A stretch of 64,000 bases of DNA from Heliorestis convoluta (GTDB lineage Bacteria; Bacillota; Desulfitobacteriia; Heliobacteriales; Heliobacteriaceae), in contig NZ_CP045875.1 of the NCBI RefSeq assembly GCF_009649955.1, forward strand, positions 124,001 to 188,000, in the 5' to 3' direction. The notes under the pieces are model-generated. The model was not told the origin of the DNA. It saw nothing but the letters and a program-made list of their open reading frames with translations, and did not search any database. A program made the position numbers and the translations under genes. Below, piece by piece: positions 1 through 51,812 of this stretch. Position 1 is the stretch's first letter. Each line of letters begins with the position of its first letter.

Positions 1-568
1 CTCCGACAATCACATATTGACAAAAAAACCCCAATATAAGAGAATGTTTAAGTATGCTCTCTATGCTATTAATATTCGCCTGATGAGGAACTGAAGAAGT
101 ACAAGATTACAAACGTCGTGATAAGCATCGGCCTATCTTAAGGCTTATTAAATCGATCAAAAAAAGCTCGTCAAAAAATGGCAGAACGGCATTTTGTGTA
201 AAAAATAACCATAGGAATTTATGAGGGAATGGTTGAAAAGAATTATGTACATTTGATAGAATAATTGCTAGATCCTGAATCACTCTAATTCTTTGCCTGC
301 GCAGACAGTATGGTGTGTCATTATGTTAGAATTAGGGGGACGAGCTTGTAATGATTTGACAGGATTTCAAGGTTCCAGTGGAGATAGAGGGGGACAATGT
401 GGTAGTCCCTGATCCGCTGTATTCCTTTCCAACGGGGGTTGGGGAAATTTCCTTTCCTCCCTTTTTTGTGCCTCTTTTCAAGACAGGCCATGCTTTTGTG
501 TTTTTAGCAAAGATGAGCGAAAGGATCTGACAAGTTGAGAAGTTTATTTCTGATTAAGTAAGAGAGGA
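1..568. other. Intergenic region upstream of nhaA
   Basis: No gene with a plausible start and ribosome binding site is visible. A short open stretch around 92-140 reads PDEELKKYKITNVV and then stops, which could be the tail of a decayed gene cut by the window edge. I see no convincing terminator, RNA gene or repeat. Confidence 0.5.
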
Positions 569-1927
569 GTGCTCGCTATTAACAAGCCCGTTTCCATTAC
601 TGAAAGATTAAAGCGTCCCTTCCAGCAGTTTTTTGAGTTAGAGGCATCAGGCGGGATCCTTCTACTCTTATGCACCGTCCTTGCGCTGATCTGGGCCAAC
701 TCACCTTTAGGCGAATCCTACATGACCCTTTGGCAAATACCTTTAACCGTTGGTTTTGGTGAATTTATTCTTCAAAAACCTTTGGTGCTATGGATTAACG
801 ATGGTCTTATGGCCATATTCTTCTTTCTTGTAGGTCTCGAAATTAAGCGAGAAGTTCTACATGGTGAACTAAAATCACCGAGACAATCGGCTTTCCCGAT
901 TGCCGCTGCTATCGGTGGTATGGTTGTACCTGCTAGTATCTATGCTGCTTTGAACTGGGGTACCGAAGGAATTACTGGTTGGGGTATCCCCATGGCGACA
1001 GATATTGCCTTTGCTCTCGGCGTACTAGCTCTTCTAGGCAAACGTGTACCACTTGCTTTAAAAGTATTTCTTGCCGCACTAGCTATAGTTGACGACCTCG
1101 GTGCTGTTCTTGTTATCGCTATTTTCTACACAGCCGATATATCTTGGATGGCCTTGGGCATCAGTGCCGGCTTCTTGGCTGTGCTGGCTCTAGCTAACTT
1201 TATTGGAGTACGTCATATCCTTGTTTATGTTGTCCTTGGTATTGGTCTCTGGTTTGCCTTCCTTCTCTCTGGTGTACACGCTACCATTGGTGGTGTCTTG
1301 CTAGCAATGACCATCCCTGCAAGCTCTAAGATCAACGCTGAAGAGTTTATGAACCGCACTCGCAGGTTGATCAAAGATTTCGAGAATGCTGGAAATGGTC
1401 GCAAAGGCGAAATCAACATGACAGAGCAACATCAAGTATGCGTACAAGCTTTAGAAACGAATTGTAACCAAGTGGACTCTCCCCTTCATCGTATGGAGCA
1501 TACACTCCATCCCTACGTTTCTTTCTTCGTTATGCCTGTCTTTGCCTTAGCCAATGCCGGCGTTGTCTTTGAAGGCGGCTTTGTAGAGTCCCTGACACAC
1601 CCTGTCAGCCTTGGTGTTATTCTAGGTCTCTTCTTCGGTAAACAGATTGGTGTAACTTTGTTCTCTTATATTGCCGTCAAGGCCGGCTGGGCTTCTTTGC
1701 CGAAAGGTGTTACCTGGACCCACGTATACGGTGTCAGCATGCTGTCTGGTATTGGTTTTACCATGTCTCTCTTTATTGCTGGCTTGGCCTTCGAAGATCA
1801 TGGTCTACTCACACTTTCTAAAGTGGGTATCTTGACAGCTTCCCTCCTTTCTGGTGTTATCGGTTACCTTGTTCTTCGCTATCAAGCTGCTAAAGATGAT
1901 GCTCGTAAAGCACTTTCTGCTTCCTAA
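569..1927 (+). CDS. nhaA: Na+/H+ antiporter NhaA
   Basis: Inner-membrane antiporter that exchanges sodium for protons. The 452-residue protein is hydrophobic throughout and carries the family hallmarks: ATDIAFALG (equivalent to the Asp133 region of the E. coli protein) and the paired aspartates in AIVDDLGAV that form the ion site. The hydrophilic loop around residues 255-315 is longer than in E. coli NhaA. The GTG at 569 lies inside the AGAGGAG ribosome binding site, so translation may really begin at the ATT at 578, eight bases after that site. It is followed by a bidirectional terminator shared with the convergent ATPase gene and appears monocistronic. Confidence 0.95.
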   Translation: MLAINKPVSITERLKRPFQQFFELEASGGILLLLCTVLALIWANSPLGESYMTLWQIPLTVGFGEFILQKPLVLWINDGLMAIFFFLVGLEIKREVLHGELKSPRQSAFPIAAAIGGMVVPASIYAALNWGTEGITGWGIPMATDIAFALGVLALLGKRVPLALKVFLAALAIVDDLGAVLVIAIFYTADISWMALGISAGFLAVLALANFIGVRHILVYVVLGIGLWFAFLLSGVHATIGGVLLAMTIPASSKINAEEFMNRTRRLIKDFENAGNGRKGEINMTEQHQVCVQALETNCNQVDSPLHRMEHTLHPYVSFFVMPVFALANAGVVFEGGFVESLTHPVSLGVILGLFFGKQIGVTLFSYIAVKAGWASLPKGVTWTHVYGVSMLSGIGFTMSLFIAGLAFEDHGLLTLSKVGILTASLLSGVIGYLVLRYQAAKDDARKALSAS

Positions 1928-16391: not shown

Positions 16392-17135
16392 ATGGAGGTT
16401 AAATTGATTAAAGAATATGATATTGCTTTTTCTTTTGCAGGTGAAGATAGGGACTTTGTAAGACCAATAGCTATTGAGCTAACCAGACATGGAGTTAAAG
16501 TATTTTATGATGAGTTGGAACAAGTAAATTTGTGGGGGAAAAATCTATATCAGCATTTGTCCCAAATATATTCTTTCAAAGCTGACTATTGCGCTATATT
16601 TATTTCAAAGTTTTATGTAGAGAAGTCCTGGGCTAAGCACGAGCTTCGTAGTGCACAGGAAAGGGCTTTTGCACAGGATGCAGAATATATATTGCCAATA
16701 AGGCTAGATAATACTAAAGTGCCTGGAATATCTGAAACAACTGGGTATATTGATGCTCGTAAGTTTTCTACCAAAGGGTTAATAGATATGTTTCTAAAAA
16801 AACTAAATTACCCATCTACTGCTCACAAAAAAGCTAAAAAGGAAAAGAATAATAGTGACCCAGAGCTTCTGTTTTTACAAATTAGAAGCATTATTAATTC
16901 CCTGGATCCAATTGACCTCTTTCCAGAAGCTCCCTCTGACGAGTATGACCCAGAAATAAGAGACATAATAACCATTTTACCTGAAATAAAGTCAATATCT
17001 GAGCTAACAATTAAAATTCATTCAATCTTTGTTAAATGGTTTGATAAAAAAATTGTAGGTAGTATATCTGATTATGAAAAGGTAGCTTATGAGATATGGT
17101 GTTTAACTCATGAAAAAATGGAAAGTGTATACTAG
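16392..17135 (+). CDS. TIR-domain protein with C-terminal DUF1871-like domain
   Basis: Residues about 5-135 are a TIR domain: YDIAFSFAGEDRDFV, VFYDELEQVNLWGKNL, and SWAKHELRSAQERA with the glutamate that catalyses NAD+ cleavage in enzymatic TIRs. Residues about 160-245 (SLDPIDLFPEAPSDEYDPEI then FVKWF) resemble DUF1871/YugE. Bacterial TIR proteins in defence islands usually degrade NAD+ or make a cyclic-ADP-ribose signal after phage sensing. No ThsA partner is adjacent; Gabija follows. The ATG at 16392 is part of ATGGAGG, a ribosome site, so the TTG at 16404 is the likelier start. The region is AT-rich. Confidence 0.8.
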   Translation: MEVKLIKEYDIAFSFAGEDRDFVRPIAIELTRHGVKVFYDELEQVNLWGKNLYQHLSQIYSFKADYCAIFISKFYVEKSWAKHELRSAQERAFAQDAEYILPIRLDNTKVPGISETTGYIDARKFSTKGLIDMFLKKLNYPSTAHKKAKKEKNNSDPELLFLQIRSIINSLDPIDLFPEAPSDEYDPEIRDIITILPEIKSISELTIKIHSIFVKWFDKKIVGSISDYEKVAYEIWCLTHEKMESVY

Positions 17136-29938: not shown

Positions 29939-31465
29939 ATGATCAAGGTGGATACTTATAAGTATATCAAAGATCTTCACATTAAGAAACGTGAGTCGAT
30001 CCGACAAATTTCTAGGGATACTGGACTTTCCCGACAAACAATCCGCAAAATCCTATACGGTTCGGTAGAAGAAGTTACACAGTACAAAAGAAATGTACCG
30101 CCACCAGCACCACTTAAAGAACAATATGCCCCCATCATAAGAGATTGGATAGTCGAGAATCTAACAGCCCCACCGAAACAACGCTACACTGCGAGCCGCA
30201 TCTTTGAACGACTCCAAGAGGAGAAAGGTTTTATAGGCGGTGCATCAACAGTTAGGGGTTGGGTAAAGGAAATAAAGCATGAATTGAACATTGAACGTAT
30301 TGAGACCTATGTCCCTCTAGAACATGACCCCGTTGGTCGTGCTCAATGTGATTGGACCCCTGCTGTGGCAAGAATAAACGGTCAGGACATTAAGGGCGAT
30401 TTATTTTTAATGCGGTTTAGCAACAGTAGTGCTTTTTATATCCGGTTTTACCCACACCAGAGACAAGAAGCATTTTTTGATGCCCACGAGAAGACATTTG
30501 CATTCTTTAATGGCGTGCCACAAAGTATTCTCTACGATAACCTAAAAACTGCAGTTAAGCGCGTACTTGTAGGACGTAAACGAGAAGAACAGGATTCTTT
30601 TGTCAAGTTCCGTGCTCACCATGGCTTTGATAGTGAATTTTGTAATCGAGCCAAAGGAAACGAAAAAGGTAAAATTGAGTCTCTAGCTCGCTACGTTAAG
30701 TGGCACGTTTTCACGCCAGTACCCGAATTCCCTACTATCGAGGCCCTCAATAACTGGATAGAAGAACGTTGCCGCAAACTAAATGCCAAGCCAAGGGGAC
30801 GGAATCAACAAAGCTTTTGGGACGCCTTTGAGCTTGAAAGAGACAAGCTATTACCCATCTCCGTTCATACATTTGACTGTTGTACCAGAAAAGAAGCCAA
30901 AGTCAACCGTTTTAGCCTGGTGCAGTTTGACCGTAATCAGTACTCAGTACCCACCGAGTACACTGGTAAAATGGTCACCGTAAAAGGCTATGTGGATAAA
31001 ATAGAAATCTATTATCAAAAAACAAAAATAGCTACCCATGAACGCTGTTACGACTCAGGAAAGCAAAAGTTTCTATTAGAACATTATCTCAAGCTTTTAG
31101 AACGTAAACCTCGTGCTGTTGGACAAGCAAAACCGGTACGGCAAGCTAATCTTCCTAAACCCTTTGCCAAGTACCATGAAGTGGTTCAAAGTATGGACCC
31201 AGAAGAAGGAGACCGCCAGTTTGTAAAGGTACTGTTATTACTAAAACGCTTTCCTGTCCACATAGTAAGTGAAGCTCTAATCTCAGCTGTAAAACAAAAC
31301 AGACTTAGTCCAGTAGATGTAGAACAGATCGTCGACACAATTGATAAACCAAGTACGAAAACAGTAAGCAGCACCAATACAGAGGTTCTAAAACCAACTG
31401 GCCAAGTAGCTCCCACCCAATTGCAACGTTATGCGAGCTTGGTTAAAGGTGGTGTTGGGGCATGA
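29939..31465 (+). CDS. istA: IS21-family transposase IstA
   Basis: A 508-residue DDE transposase. The N-terminal helix-turn-helix (KKRESIRQISRDTGLSRQTI) binds the IS ends. The integrase-type catalytic core follows, with the first aspartate in RAQCDWTPA near residue 137, the second in SILYDNLKTAV near 200 and the glutamate in KGNEKGKIESLARYVKW. The C-terminal region includes the usual Mu-type beta-barrel (VNRFSLVQFDRNQYSVP). The frame is intact, so the element may still be active. Confidence 0.93.
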   Translation: MIKVDTYKYIKDLHIKKRESIRQISRDTGLSRQTIRKILYGSVEEVTQYKRNVPPPAPLKEQYAPIIRDWIVENLTAPPKQRYTASRIFERLQEEKGFIGGASTVRGWVKEIKHELNIERIETYVPLEHDPVGRAQCDWTPAVARINGQDIKGDLFLMRFSNSSAFYIRFYPHQRQEAFFDAHEKTFAFFNGVPQSILYDNLKTAVKRVLVGRKREEQDSFVKFRAHHGFDSEFCNRAKGNEKGKIESLARYVKWHVFTPVPEFPTIEALNNWIEERCRKLNAKPRGRNQQSFWDAFELERDKLLPISVHTFDCCTRKEAKVNRFSLVQFDRNQYSVPTEYTGKMVTVKGYVDKIEIYYQKTKIATHERCYDSGKQKFLLEHYLKLLERKPRAVGQAKPVRQANLPKPFAKYHEVVQSMDPEEGDRQFVKVLLLLKRFPVHIVSEALISAVKQNRLSPVDVEQIVDTIDKPSTKTVSSTNTEVLKPTGQVAPTQLQRYASLVKGGVGA

Positions 31466-32238
31466 ACCAAATGACGATTTCACATTACCTAAAGGAGTTA
31501 CGTCTACCGGCAGCAGCAAAAGCACTGCCCAACCTACTGCGGGAGGCACAAGATCGAGACTTTAACCATCTAGAGTTCTTAAGTGCTTTACTCCGCCAGG
31601 AGCTAGACCAGCGAGAGGAAAATACCGTTGCCAGAAGAATTAAACAAGCACGTTTTCCACAGATCAAAACTTTAGAAACCTTCGACTTCAGTCTAATATC
31701 CACAGTGAGTAAATCCCGTATCTTAGCTCTAGCCCAAGGTCAATACATAGACGAAAAGCGACATGTAATTTTTATGGGTAACTCTGGGACAGGAAAGTCC
31801 CACATAGCTAGTGCTCTCGGTCTTGCAGCCTGTCAACAGGGTCGTAAGGTCCGGTTTTACCAAACAGCCCGTTTGGTTGAAGAACTAGTCACGGCTCGAG
31901 AAGAACACCGCCTCTTAAAGCTTGAAAAGGAGTGGATGCGAGACGAGGTTGTAATACTTGATGAACTGGGCTATATCCCCTTTAGCAAAACTGGAGCAGA
32001 ATTACTATTTCAGTTTTGTTCTACAAGGCATGAACTTGGTAGCATCATCGTTACAACCAACCTAGACTTCGAAAAGTGGCCTGAAGTGTTTGGGGATGTA
32101 CGTTTGACGGAAGCCCTAGTTGATCGGTTGACCCATAGGGCCGACATCCATCTGATGAATGGAGAAAGCTACCGTTTTCGTGAGACCATCCAACAAAAGC
32201 CAACATCAAACTTACTCCAACAACCTAACGGAGATTAA
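31462..32238 (+). CDS. istB: IS21-family helper ATPase IstB
   Basis: AAA+ ATPase related to DnaC that helps IstA choose targets. Walker A GNSGTGKSHIASALG near residue 108, Walker B VVILDELGYIPFSK, sensor VTTNLDF. 258 residues is normal. The ATG overlaps the istA stop (ATGA), the standard arrangement for coupled translation in IS21. Confidence 0.95.
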   Translation: MNQMTISHYLKELRLPAAAKALPNLLREAQDRDFNHLEFLSALLRQELDQREENTVARRIKQARFPQIKTLETFDFSLISTVSKSRILALAQGQYIDEKRHVIFMGNSGTGKSHIASALGLAACQQGRKVRFYQTARLVEELVTAREEHRLLKLEKEWMRDEVVILDELGYIPFSKTGAELLFQFCSTRHELGSIIVTTNLDFEKWPEVFGDVRLTEALVDRLTHRADIHLMNGESYRFRETIQQKPTSNLLQQPNGD

Positions 32239-34507: not shown

Positions 34508-34607
34508 CTTGACAGTGGTAGTCGTTTTCTCAAGATAAATAACAAGATATTACAAGTAGATTAGCTTTATTAAAGGGGCAACCTATTCCTGGAGGTGATG
34601 TGTCTTC

Positions 34608-34853
34608 ATCCAAGATTGGCTTGAGTCTAGACGACAGCGGAGAGAAGAAGAGGTAGAGCGTATTCGTGGTCACTTTAGAGAAAAGCAGGAGAAAAACAAG
34701 AATTTTGAGAAGGACCTTATATTTTTCTTAGAGCAAATTGAGGCTGCTGGAATTCAAGTTCCTGAAAGTGTAAAAGAACATCTAATCAAAAAGCTAGAGG
34801 GAACAAAAGAATCACACAAATGGCATGAAGATATTATTAAGAACCTCCACTAA
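34608..34853 (+). CDS. Charged helical protein with no ATG, GTG or TTG start
   Basis: The frame from the TGA at 34596 to the TAA at 34851 reads FIQDWLESRRQRREEEVERI, FLEQIEAAGIQVPESVKEHL and ends HKWHEDIIKNLH. It is highly charged and helical, clearly coding-like. No ATG, GTG or TTG occurs anywhere in frame. A strong GGAGGTG (34591) lies 10 bases before an ATC at 34608, so translation from AUC is the simplest reading; a lost start codon is the alternative. A terminator follows immediately, which supports it being a gene end. Function unknown. Confidence 0.5.
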   Translation: MQDWLESRRQRREEEVERIRGHFREKQEKNKNFEKDLIFFLEQIEAAGIQVPESVKEHLIKKLEGTKESHKWHEDIIKNLH

Positions 34854-34858
34854 ATTTA

Positions 34859-34893
34859 AACGTTCTCGCTAAACTTGGCGAGAACGTTATTGC
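34859..34893. terminator. Hairpin terminator after the charged helical protein
   Basis: AACGTTCTCGC (34859-34869) pairs with GCGAGAACGTT (34878-34888); the trailing T run is short (ATTGCGG), so efficiency is uncertain. Confidence 0.65.
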
Positions 34894-48275: not shown

Positions 48276-48466
48276 CTTATCGCTTAATTATTAGTATGAT
48301 CTTTATAGGTTTAGAAAATATTCTTTAGATTAAAAAAGCGTCTTAAAAACAAGTAACGTTTTGACCCCCTAATAAAAGTCTGCCCTTTTTGAGAAAAAAC
48401 CCACCTTGTGATTTGCAAGGTGGGTTTTCTGCATTTAAAGGCATAGGGTAAGGGGGTGACATACCA
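48276..48466 (+). promoter_or_regulatory. Leader of the transfer operon with terminator-like hairpin
   Basis: AAAACCCACCTTG (48396-48408) pairs perfectly with CAAGGTGGGTTTT (48416-48428) around 7 bases. Only a short T run follows. It lies about 40 bases before the first secretion gene and could be a terminator for recD2 or the attenuator that the specialised NusG overrides. I see no strong promoter between recD2 and the hairpin. Confidence 0.55.
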
Positions 48467-48814
48467 ATCAAAAAAACAAAGGCTATGGCATTTGTTGGAG
48501 CTGCGATTTGTACTCTACTGATTGTTAGTACAGCTTTTGCAAATGCGCCAACAAGCATTACAGAAGGTCTTCAAGGTCAAAGTCTGAATGATGCAGGAAA
48601 CAAAATACTCAATGTAGTTAAATGGGTAATGGCAATCCTAACAATTGTTTGTGCTGTTGCCATGGCTGCTATCGGAGCTAAAATGGCTGCATTAGGTTCT
48701 AATCCTCAAAAAAGAGCAGACTTGATGACTGGTTTTCTTGTTGCCATGGGTGGTACAGCGATTTGCGGTGGAGCATGGTTCTTAACCAGTGTTGGACTTG
48801 GAATCTTTCAATAA
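48467..48814 (+). CDS. TrbC/VirB2-like conjugative pilin-type protein
   Basis: Small exported membrane protein, first of the transfer run. A signal peptide ending STAFA-NAP, then a mature part of about 90 residues with two hydrophobic helices (NVVKWVMAILTIVCAVAMAA and TGFLVAMGGTAICGGAWFLT) around a short polar loop, the VirB2 pattern. The ATG at 48485 would give a signal peptide without positive charge. An ATC at 48467, 8 bases after AGGGGGTG, adds KKTKAM and makes a proper n-region, so initiation at AUC is likely. Confidence 0.75.
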   Translation: MKKTKAMAFVGAAICTLLIVSTAFANAPTSITEGLQGQSLNDAGNKILNVVKWVMAILTIVCAVAMAAIGAKMAALGSNPQKRADLMTGFLVAMGGTAICGGAWFLTSVGLGIFQ

Positions 48815-49170: not shown

Positions 49171-49188
49171 TTTTCACTGACTTATGTA

Positions 49189-49878
49189 TTGGGCTTACTT
49201 AGTTTGTTGGCCGCCGTCTTTGGCGGCTTTTTTTTCTACGAAAAACATAGGCAGAAAAAAGAGAAAGAAGAAACTTTGCCGAGTGCCCAAGAATTTTTAA
49301 GGGTTGAAGACATTCGGTATAACACAATCTGTTTGGGTGATGGAGAGTACAGGGCTGCCATCGAATGTGGTTCCATAAACTATTTTTTGCTCAGCATGAA
49401 TGAGCAGTATGCCATAGAGCAATCCTTTTCCCGCTATATAGCTGGCCTAACTAGAAATGTTCAGTTTCAAATTCAGACTCGTCAAGTAGATATGCGCTGG
49501 GCAATCACTCAGATCCGCGGGAATTCACAAAAACAAAACAATGCAGTCTTGCAGGGCTATGCCGATAATCTTGCAAAGTTTCTAGAAGACTGGTCAGCCC
49601 AAAGGTCTACTTTAATCCGAAAAAACTACATAGTTGTTTCGTCGAAAAACGAAAAGCCTGAAGAAGCTTATGGAGAGCTGAACAGGCTTGCTCAGACGAC
49701 CATAGACGCTCTTAGTCGAATGGGAGTCAAATGCAAGGTCTTGAATACACAAGAACTTTTGGATGTTTTATATGTATCTCAAAATAAGGAAAGAGCATCT
49801 TATGCGCCTGGTCCAAGTAAAGCCGAAGAACTGGGTTACATGAGCTTACTTGTTGAAGGTAACAACCAAAGTAGGTGA
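49189..49878 (+). CDS. Conjugation protein with N-terminal membrane anchor, VirB4-N-like
   Basis: 229 residues: a single N-terminal helix (GLLSLLAAVFGGFFFYEKH), a charged linker, then a domain (VEDIRYNTICLGDGEYRAAI, INYFLLSMNEQYAIEQSFSR) that resembles the N-terminal part of VirB4/TraC ATPases but lacks the ATPase. Such split forms lie next to virB4 in some Firmicute elements. The start is uncertain: TTG at 49189 or CTG at 49177, both following AAGGGGT. It overlaps or abuts virB4. Confidence 0.55.
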   Translation: MGLLSLLAAVFGGFFFYEKHRQKKEKEETLPSAQEFLRVEDIRYNTICLGDGEYRAAIECGSINYFLLSMNEQYAIEQSFSRYIAGLTRNVQFQIQTRQVDMRWAITQIRGNSQKQNNAVLQGYADNLAKFLEDWSAQRSTLIRKNYIVVSSKNEKPEEAYGELNRLAQTTIDALSRMGVKCKVLNTQELLDVLYVSQNKERASYAPGPSKAEELGYMSLLVEGNNQSR

Positions 49879-49886
49879 TAGCACAC

Positions 49887-51812
49887 ATGCTTGAGTGGTT
49901 CAGGAAAAAAGAAAAGAAACAAAACCAGGAAAGAAGTAAGCTTACAAAACCGAAAACGGAAGAGGAACTTCAGTTCTCGTTAGAAAGCGAAGAAGAAATA
50001 GTTTTCGGACAATCCCTTAAAGGCTCGGTACCGTCTATTAAGGATCTTGTTGCTCCTGATGGATACAAAGAAACAGAGAACTACATGCAAGTAGGCTCCA
50101 AAAGGTATTCTCGTGTCTTTGTAATCGCGCAATTACCTAGAATCGTACAGGTTGGATTTTTAGAAATTGTTTACGGCTTAGGTGATGTGGATGTATCCGT
50201 TCACCTGTATCCGGTAAACGGAAAAAGCGCGGTAGAGCAATTGACAAGGCAGATAACGCAGTTAGAATCACAAAGAATCATCGAAGAAAAACGTGGTGAT
50301 ATCTATAACCTATCATTGCTAACTGCCACTAGAGATGACCTTTGGCAACTTCGAGAAGCGATTCAAACAGGTAGAGAAAAACTATATCACACGACTATTT
50401 TGATCAATTTATCTGCTCATTCACCGGAAGACCTTGACCGAAAATCGCTAATTCTTGAAGAACGACTTGCTGGTAGAGGGATGGAACTACGCTCTATGTT
50501 TCTCAGGCAAGCAGAAGCTTATCGAAGTACCTTGCTTCTTGGTAGAAATGAAGTAATGGACATATATCGCACGCTGAACATGGGTGGAGCCTTATCACTT
50601 TTTCCTTTTCTAAATCCAGAACTAACACATGATTCGGGTATTTTCTTAGGACGAAATTTTCACACAGGAGCGCCGATCTTTTTTGATTCTTTCAAAGGAC
50701 AAAACTATTCCATGGTACTTATCGGCACGGCTGGCGCTGGAAAGTCAGTGACCGTGAAAGCAGTGATCAACCGAGGCGCCATTGAAGGAATACGCTCTTT
50801 AATCGTCGATGTAGAAGGCGAGTACAAAAACACAACTCTCATGATAGGCGGTGCTCATATTCCCTTGTATCCTGATAAACCTGCAATGTTGAACCCCTTA
50901 GAGATCGAAGTAGATATTGACGATGATACAGGTGAAGAAGAAGTTAGGGTAAGGGAAAAAGTTGTTCAGGTAGCTGACCTACTCACAATCATGTGTATGG
51001 GTACCCATGGTGAAGCTATCTCTGCTGAAGAAAGGGCTATCATAGAAGAAGCCGTTTTAGAAACTTATAGGGACGACTTTGGTATTAACGAAAAACCAGA
51101 TAGCCTTTACGAGGAAATTCCCATTGAGTCCAGTGAAGCAGAAGAGATCAATTTGGGATATCGACGAAAAGAGATGCCTACGATTTCTAACGTTTACAAT
51201 CGAATCGTTCAAAAAGAAGGGGCAATAAGGCTATCTAGGATTCTCAAACCTTTTTTACGAACAGGCACGATGGGAATGTTTGATGGCCCTTCTCAAATCG
51301 ACTTAAAAGATGTGCCTGTTATTTGTTTTAACTTAAAGCCTTTGGGTGAAAGTTTTTTAAGACCGCTTGCAATGTATATCGTATCTACCTGGGCATGGGA
51401 AACATGGATTAAAAGAAATCGTCATGTAAGAAAACGCTTTATAGCTGATGAAGCTTGGGTCATGATGGGATATGAAGAGATGGCTTCTTTTCTAGAGCTT
51501 CTTTCAAGGCGTGGTCGTAAATGGAACATTTCGCTCATGGTAGCCTCACAATCATTTGTGGAATTTGTTGAAAACCCAAAAGGAAAAGCAGTCTTAACCA
51601 ATGCCATGACAAGACTTCTGATGAAACAGTCACCGACAGACATAGATGCTGTATGCGAAGTCTTTAAGCTCACTGAAGGGGAGAGAGAATTTATTGCATC
51701 TTGTGGTCAAGGTGAAGGTCTTCTACAGTATGACAAAGAAAAATTGGCCGTAGAGGTGGTGTGTACGCCTGAAGAGTTGGAGTTCTTTAACACAACACCA
51801 CAAATTGCTTAG
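49887..51812 (+). CDS. VirB4/TraE-type conjugation ATPase
   Basis: Energy-supplying ATPase of the secretion channel. Walker A LIGTAGAGKSVTVKA near residue 281, the DVEGEYKN strand, Walker B RKRFIADEAWVMM near 517 and the following LLSRRGRKWNISLMVASQ segment are the VirB4 hallmarks. The N-terminal 200 residues are the membrane-facing domain. The ATG at 49887 follows AGGTGA; the in-frame GTG at 49875 overlaps the previous stop. Its absence of a transmembrane anchor and the HerA/FtsK-like core distinguish it from VirD4, which is not in the window. Confidence 0.92.
   Translation: MLEWFRKKEKKQNQERSKLTKPKTEEELQFSLESEEEIVFGQSLKGSVPSIKDLVAPDGYKETENYMQVGSKRYSRVFVIAQLPRIVQVGFLEIVYGLGDVDVSVHLYPVNGKSAVEQLTRQITQLESQRIIEEKRGDIYNLSLLTATRDDLWQLREAIQTGREKLYHTTILINLSAHSPEDLDRKSLILEERLAGRGMELRSMFLRQAEAYRSTLLLGRNEVMDIYRTLNMGGALSLFPFLNPELTHDSGIFLGRNFHTGAPIFFDSFKGQNYSMVLIGTAGAGKSVTVKAVINRGAIEGIRSLIVDVEGEYKNTTLMIGGAHIPLYPDKPAMLNPLEIEVDIDDDTGEEEVRVREKVVQVADLLTIMCMGTHGEAISAEERAIIEEAVLETYRDDFGINEKPDSLYEEIPIESSEAEEINLGYRRKEMPTISNVYNRIVQKEGAIRLSRILKPFLRTGTMGMFDGPSQIDLKDVPVICFNLKPLGESFLRPLAMYIVSTWAWETWIKRNRHVRKRFIADEAWVMMGYEEMASFLELLSRRGRKWNISLMVASQSFVEFVENPKGKAVLTNAMTRLLMKQSPTDIDAVCEVFKLTEGEREFIASCGQGEGLLQYDKEKLAVEVVCTPEELEFFNTTPQIA

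Follow-up and report, generated by a model that had tools for sequence, protein, structure and literature searches.

The window analysed here, a stretch of 64,000 nucleotides from the single-contig genome of Heliorestis convoluta (3,218,981 bases; G000), contains an 81-codon frame with the look of a coding sequence, and raises the question of where translation of this gene begins. The first-pass annotation had proposed an AUC codon as the initiator and had seen in it a sign of regular AUC and AUU starts in this organism. The elements of the locus are the following:

34608..34853, plus strand: 81-codon gene; product highly charged, predicted two-helix hairpin
34608..34610, plus strand: proposed start codon AUC, judged by the aligned codon in relatives
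34591..34599, plus strand: extended Shine-Dalgarno site GGAGGTGAT, read from the sequence and able to pair with the 16S tail seen in L052
34859..34888, plus strand: inverted repeat AACGTTCTCGC ... GCGAGAACGTT; may be a terminator, T tail poor

The frame runs from TGGAGGTGATGTGTCTTC ATC CAA GAT TGG to a TAA stop codon at 34851-34853. An in-frame stop, TGA, lies upstream at 34596, and no ATG, GTG or TTG codon was found either in the 81-codon frame or between this TGA and ATC 34608. The claim that a frame devoid of these codons follows a strong ribosome site was thus confirmed, the site being the nine-base GGAGGTGAT, which forms a nine-base pairing with the 16S tail GGATCACCTCCTTTCT (L052, in which the rest of the 16S is N) and has a duplex score of -18.75 on a rough scale. 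The AUC had also been said to lie at the right spacing, and this held only in part: the site is present, but the distance from GGAGG to ATC 34608 is 12 nt, whereas the spacing of canonical starts in the H. convoluta genome peaks at 7-9 nt, with 12 nt in 23 of 510. The spacing of the 34608 start therefore belongs to the tail of the distribution and counts against an AUC start; it is matched by the spacings of 11-12 nt in ccpN, one of the conserved genes described below. A GATG...CATC hairpin bridging the ribosome site and the start was rejected, since its folding was no better than that of shuffles. On the other side of the gene, the inverted repeat at 34859..34888 was absent from the output of the terminator scan, and a comparable hairpin is found at the same place 3' of the gene in its relatives.

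Homologues were searched for in 61 genomes, that of H. convoluta plus 60 others related to it; relatives of the 81-aa protein were found only in the sister species (G001), H. chlorum (G002) and H. mobile (G006); a profile derived from these relatives was run on fetched genome stretches. The subfamily to which the window's gene belongs (subfamily A) has ATC at the aligned start codon in all 13 intact members, from two genera, and the conserved motif WLxxRR directly follows the start codon in the family. In a tandem sister subfamily (B), the codon aligned with this ATC is TTG (5/5). The presence of TTG in subfamily B at the very place of AUC in subfamily A is the strongest local evidence for AUC as the initiator. 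Homologues with ATG at this place, which the first-pass annotation had named as evidence against its proposal, were not found among these members of the two subfamilies. In a more divergent member, L204, the ATC sits one codon upstream, and 2 of the 13 subfamily-A members (L202 and L206) retain little of the ribosome site, which is also weaker in L200. We consider it likely, from these comparisons, that AUC 34608 is where translation of the 81-codon gene begins, and that the gene exemplifies a practice which the heliobacterial family follows at low frequency.

Other explanations were weighed against this one. The frame could be a decayed or untranslated remnant, its coding look and leader being left over, in line with the truncation of the same-genus copy in G001 (which is uninformative about the start) and with a few broken copies in G002 and G006 (L016, L011). 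However, the 13 intact copies share the same leader and the lack of an in-frame ATG across two genera, and, near the start, most of the differences that separate the window copy from the others are synonymous or conservative, so a remnant appears very unlikely. Translation might instead begin at the out-of-frame ATG 34598 (ATG TGT CTT C) and enter the ATC CAA GAT TGG frame by a prfB-like +1 shift after CTT. This ATG recurs in 13/13 intact subfamily-A leaders, 12 times at the same place and once three bases upstream, and CTT-C could, from its predicted pairing, re-pair in the +1 frame; however, the ATG is only 2 nt from GGAGG, too close for a site of its own, neither a stop nor a slow codon follows CTT, and the sister subfamily has no such ATG, its TTG giving equal N-termini only if subfamily A starts at ATC. 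We regard such a frameshift as very unlikely. A start at GTC (34602) or TTC (34605) is judged highly improbable: although these codons lie 6 and 9 nt from the site, more usual distances than 12, and a GTC start has been proven for Streptomyces sigR (PMC5472188), it is with ATC, and with neither of them, that the sister subfamily's TTG aligns; in addition, two of the three positions of AUC match the initiator anticodon. A sequencing or assembly error concealing an ATG, a possibility raised by the first-pass annotation, has a negligible chance of being correct, as it is contradicted by the same codon in the independently sequenced records of H. chlorum and H. mobile.

The ATG at 34598 overlaps the ribosome site and opens a short frame, ATG TGT CTT CAT CCA AGA TTG GCT TGA (34598-34624), which recurs in the relatives and could be a short overlapping leader frame.

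Two other genes of the window, nhaA and a VirB2-like pilin gene, had been proposed to start at ATT and ATC, respectively, and two candidates for a CTG start are found in genes of the transfer region:

563..580, plus strand: nhaA: AGAGGAG (563-569) as ribosome site, ATT (578-580) as putative start; leader kept in the sister species
578..1927, plus strand: nhaA, Na+/H+ antiporter, read from ATT (Pfam PF06965, E 1e-156; NCBIfam NhaA)
48450..48469, plus strand: ribosome site AAGGGGGTGA of the VirB2-like pilin gene, with ATC (48467-48469) as putative start; no difference in the sister species
48467..48814, plus strand: VirB2-like pilin gene from ATC (Pfam T4SS_pilin, E 4e-6, just over the cut-off)
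49177..49878, plus strand: transfer-region gene, candidate CTG start after AAAAGGGGTCTGAT; same leader in the sister-species contig L157
51769..53847, plus strand: 692-codon transfer-region gene, candidate CTG start after GAGGTGGTG, from the sequence

The description given earlier for nhaA was found to be correct: from the in-frame stop down to ATT 578, the only canonical codon is GTG 569, which lies inside AGAGGAG-TG, and the ATT is well spaced, at 7 nt from the core of the ribosome site. The leader AAGAGAGGAGTGCTCGCT is kept in the sister species (G001), the NhaA of which is 86% identical to the window protein; ATT is there changed to ATA and the next codons differ, both putative starts being non-canonical. 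The search for homologues with ATG gave a divided answer for this gene, with none in the same genus, but with an ATG close to the position of the window's ATT in the more distant nhaA genes (G005, G006). The VirB2-like product read from ATC 48467 begins IKKTKAMAFVGAAI..., and the need for this codon was likewise borne out by the sequence, the first ATG (48485) being six codons past the ATC and lacking a ribosome site. Its copy in the sister species is identical and hence uninformative on the start, and in the G007 relatives a similar site is followed by an ATG start that lies at least two codons upstream of this position. In the gene at 51769, the first canonical codon lies 12 codons past the CTG and has no site.

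A set of conserved genes, compared across nine heliobacterial genomes, was picked for an odd heliobacterial codon and so serves to establish the practice and gives no rate. In ccpN, ATT or ATC occupies the aligned start codon in 9/9 heliobacteria, and the 12 genes read outside the family all have TTG (8) or ATG (4) there; in G005, G007 and G008, the frame is closed by a stop only 2-3 codons before this codon, and the interval contains no canonical codon. An aminotransferase gene has ATT (G000, G001, G002, G006 and G003) or ATC (G005, G007 and G008) in eight of the nine genomes and GTG in the ninth (G004). In G000 and G001 the interval from the in-frame stop to the ATT is free of canonical codons, and G003 has an additional ATG one codon before the ATT. 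For ruvC, the codon is CTG in six of the nine heliobacteria and TTG in the other three, and outside the family 11 loci were read, with ATG in 10 and TTG in 1. However, an in-frame GTG is present 3-4 codons upstream, inside the ribosome site, in 4 of the 6 ruvC genes with CTG and in 6 of the 9 ccpN genes, and these GTG codons count against the non-canonical reading. A penicillin-binding protein gene has CTG after a ribosome site in G000, G001 and G003 and ATG in G002. An SMC-like gene (1483 aa) has CTG in H. convoluta only, with ATG in four other matches, and a recent change from ATG to CTG is possible:

L104 10067 on that strand (G000:C1:2428585-2429934), minus strand: SMC-like gene, putative CTG start, from aligned matches

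The positive control, infC, had an ATC or ATT start in all 21 genomes read. Judged by the aligned leaders, AUU, AUC, CUG and, once, AUA take the place of ATG, GTG or TTG as putative start codons in a few genes, namely ruvC, ccpN, the aminotransferase, the penicillin-binding protein and nhaA. The initial proposal named AUC and AUU alone and attributed their use to this organism; CUG is equally involved (ruvC, penicillin-binding protein and SMC-like gene), and the practice appears instead to be common to the family and conserved.

The frequency of such starts in H. convoluta was addressed with a sample of 864 kb (27% of the genome), consisting of 40 evenly spaced stretches and the window. Of the 626 ORFs called, 578 possessed a canonical codon preceded by a ribosome site; the remaining 48 lacked one. 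Within these 48 ORFs, a strong site preceded 13 of 102 ATT, ATC, ATA or CTG codons near the coding start, as against 38 of 1073 other codons (Fisher p = 2e-4), and a stricter cut gave 8/102 vs 15/1073 (p = 4e-4). Ribosome sites followed by near-cognate codons were thus enriched in this subset of the sample, but over all ORFs ATT, ATC and ATA were not enriched after ribosome sites and CTG did only slightly better than other codons. An EM estimate of start-codon use was set aside, because codons that represent noise, TTT for example, reached scores equal to that of CTG. The near-cognate matches, counted by hand, fall in 11 of the 626 ORFs, which suggests that non-canonical starts account for about 1-2% of the genes of H. 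convoluta. A screen of orthologs, starting from canonical genes of G001 and G005, mapped 91 of 451 genes, 67 with a canonical codon at the aligned position and 24 otherwise; ruvC was the only clean case among these 24 when read by eye, the rest being explained by nearby canonical codons or wrong starts in the queries. The regular use of AUC and AUU that had been suggested therefore appears real, but rare (about 11/626 ORFs; 1 clean case in 91 orthologs).

No cases were found in the sample screened from Heliobacterium modesticaldum (G005). The comparison of H. convoluta with the controls (11/626 ORFs vs 2/600 in G005, G010 and G018 together; one-sided Fisher p = 0.013) is weak, as the lists were read by eye, and convincing cases also occur in G010 and G018; the data thus do not show that heliobacteria stand alone in this respect. 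Two genes, in two genomes outside the heliobacteria, were noted in passing: a glycosyltransferase gene with a putative ATC start (L145 12381, minus strand) and a gene of unassigned function with a putative ATT start (L143 2060, plus strand).

The initiation machinery has an ordinary appearance. The initiator tRNA has the C1-A72 mismatch, the three G-C stem pairs and a CAU anticodon, and no initiator-like tRNA with an Ile or other anticodon was found in the 11 loci scanned. The anti-Shine-Dalgarno tail is also ordinary (L052, with N for the rest of the 16S), and IF3 is complete and keeps residues that we take to be important. These features suggest that a general relaxation of initiation is not involved, and the simplest mechanism is consequently that shown in Staphylococcus aureus. 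In such a mechanism, GGAGGTGAT would hold the 30S subunit over the near-cognate AUC, which the ordinary initiator tRNA would read with a third-position mismatch. The extended Shine-Dalgarno site would compensate for the weak codon, and synthesis of the 81-aa protein would be expected to be low, IF3-sensitive and possibly regulated. More generally, initiation at AUC, AUU and CUG would yield proteins with an fMet N-terminus in low amounts, and control by IF3 would be expected by analogy with infC and sigR; the comparative data consist of the sequences, the putative ribosome sites and the exchange with canonical codons at aligned positions.

The heliobacterial genes resemble infC, with its AUU, AUC or AUA start, in having a near-cognate codon after a strong ribosome site. 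The infC gene is autoregulated by its own product, IF3, and we know of no such autoregulatory loop for the heliobacterial genes considered here. Unusual starts have reportedly been described by proteomics in Deinococcus deserti. This precedent was dropped, since PMC2669436 did not contain the unusual-start terms sought. The first-pass annotation held AUC and AUU starts to be known elsewhere only for genes such as infC, a view that is outdated. In S. aureus (PMC13009471), AUU (cvfC1) and AUA (ccpN and citZ) starts with extended Shine-Dalgarno sites were identified by Ribo-Ret and reporters, with roughly 10% of the activity of AUG. The two systems are alike in the combination of an extended Shine-Dalgarno site with an AUU or AUA start, small proteins included, and ccpN is non-canonical in both (AUA there, AUU or AUC here). 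They differ in that the heliobacterial set is comparative only and adds CUG, AUC and more genes. Streptomyces sigR is likewise a normal chromosomal gene with a non-canonical start overlooked by annotation; unlike the heliobacterial genes, it starts at GTC, and its repression by IF3 has been shown (PMC5472188).

The kind of start is thus already known, and what is new is the gene set, its conservation across the family and the regular share of CUG. Among 61,358 ancestral AUG starts, switches to CUG and AUU were counted twice and once, respectively (PMC5622118), and CUG makes up 0.024% of bacterial starts (PMC11497404). By these published figures such switches are very rare, and they are nevertheless retained throughout one family in three conserved genes. 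The published annotation of H. convoluta lists ATG, GTG and TTG starts at 63.5, 15.7 and 20.8 per cent (Table 1 of PMC7143216); these values sum to 100% and leave no room for AUU, AUC or CUG. Heliobacterial annotation restricted to ATG, GTG and TTG misses such genes or misplaces their N-termini, and the genes concerned appear to include some basic ones, with starts overlooked by ordinary gene finders. A literature search on heliobacteria combined with start codons, or on non-canonical starts with proteogenomics, found no paper on the subject among the titles listed. These genes form a natural set for asking whether weak start codons constitute a shared IF3-dependent control. A broader interpretation, which we put forward tentatively and with more doubt than conviction, is that AUU, AUC and CUG are standing start codons for a conserved, weakly translated regulon whose genes are tied together by the level of IF3; with the same reservation, this regulon might comprise about 1-2% of genes, including ruvC, ccpN, the aminotransferase and the penicillin-binding protein, along with small defence-island genes.

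The product of the 81-codon gene was assigned to no family in Pfam, NCBIfam or PADLOC and had no match in the plasmid and viral collections searched. Its AlphaFold2 model (mean pLDDT 86.9), with helices at residues 2-47 and 53-79, is a plain helical hairpin as predicted. Both H. chlorum and H. mobile possess many copies of the family (noted at L195, L196, L197, L199, L200, L201, L202 and L205), frequently arranged in tandem as A-B pairs of an AUC-type and a TTG-type gene. Several of the copies are situated only a few kilobases from a defence gene that differs from copy to copy; the eight neighbours scanned include Dsr2, LmuB, a GmrSD/HEC-06-like gene, type I restriction and a TIR-WD40 protein. 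The family may be a shared companion of defence genes or mark a cassette boundary. In the window, the 81-codon gene comes after an HATPase gene with a weak restriction-enzyme match, just upstream of which are two adjacent frames (29939-32238) with a resemblance to those of an IS21-like element, namely its transposase and its helper ATPase. The gene at 16392-17135, the start of which we take to resemble a TIR-type domain (KEYDIAFSFAGEDRDF...), is located in the same window as the HATPase gene, and this is possibly a defence region.
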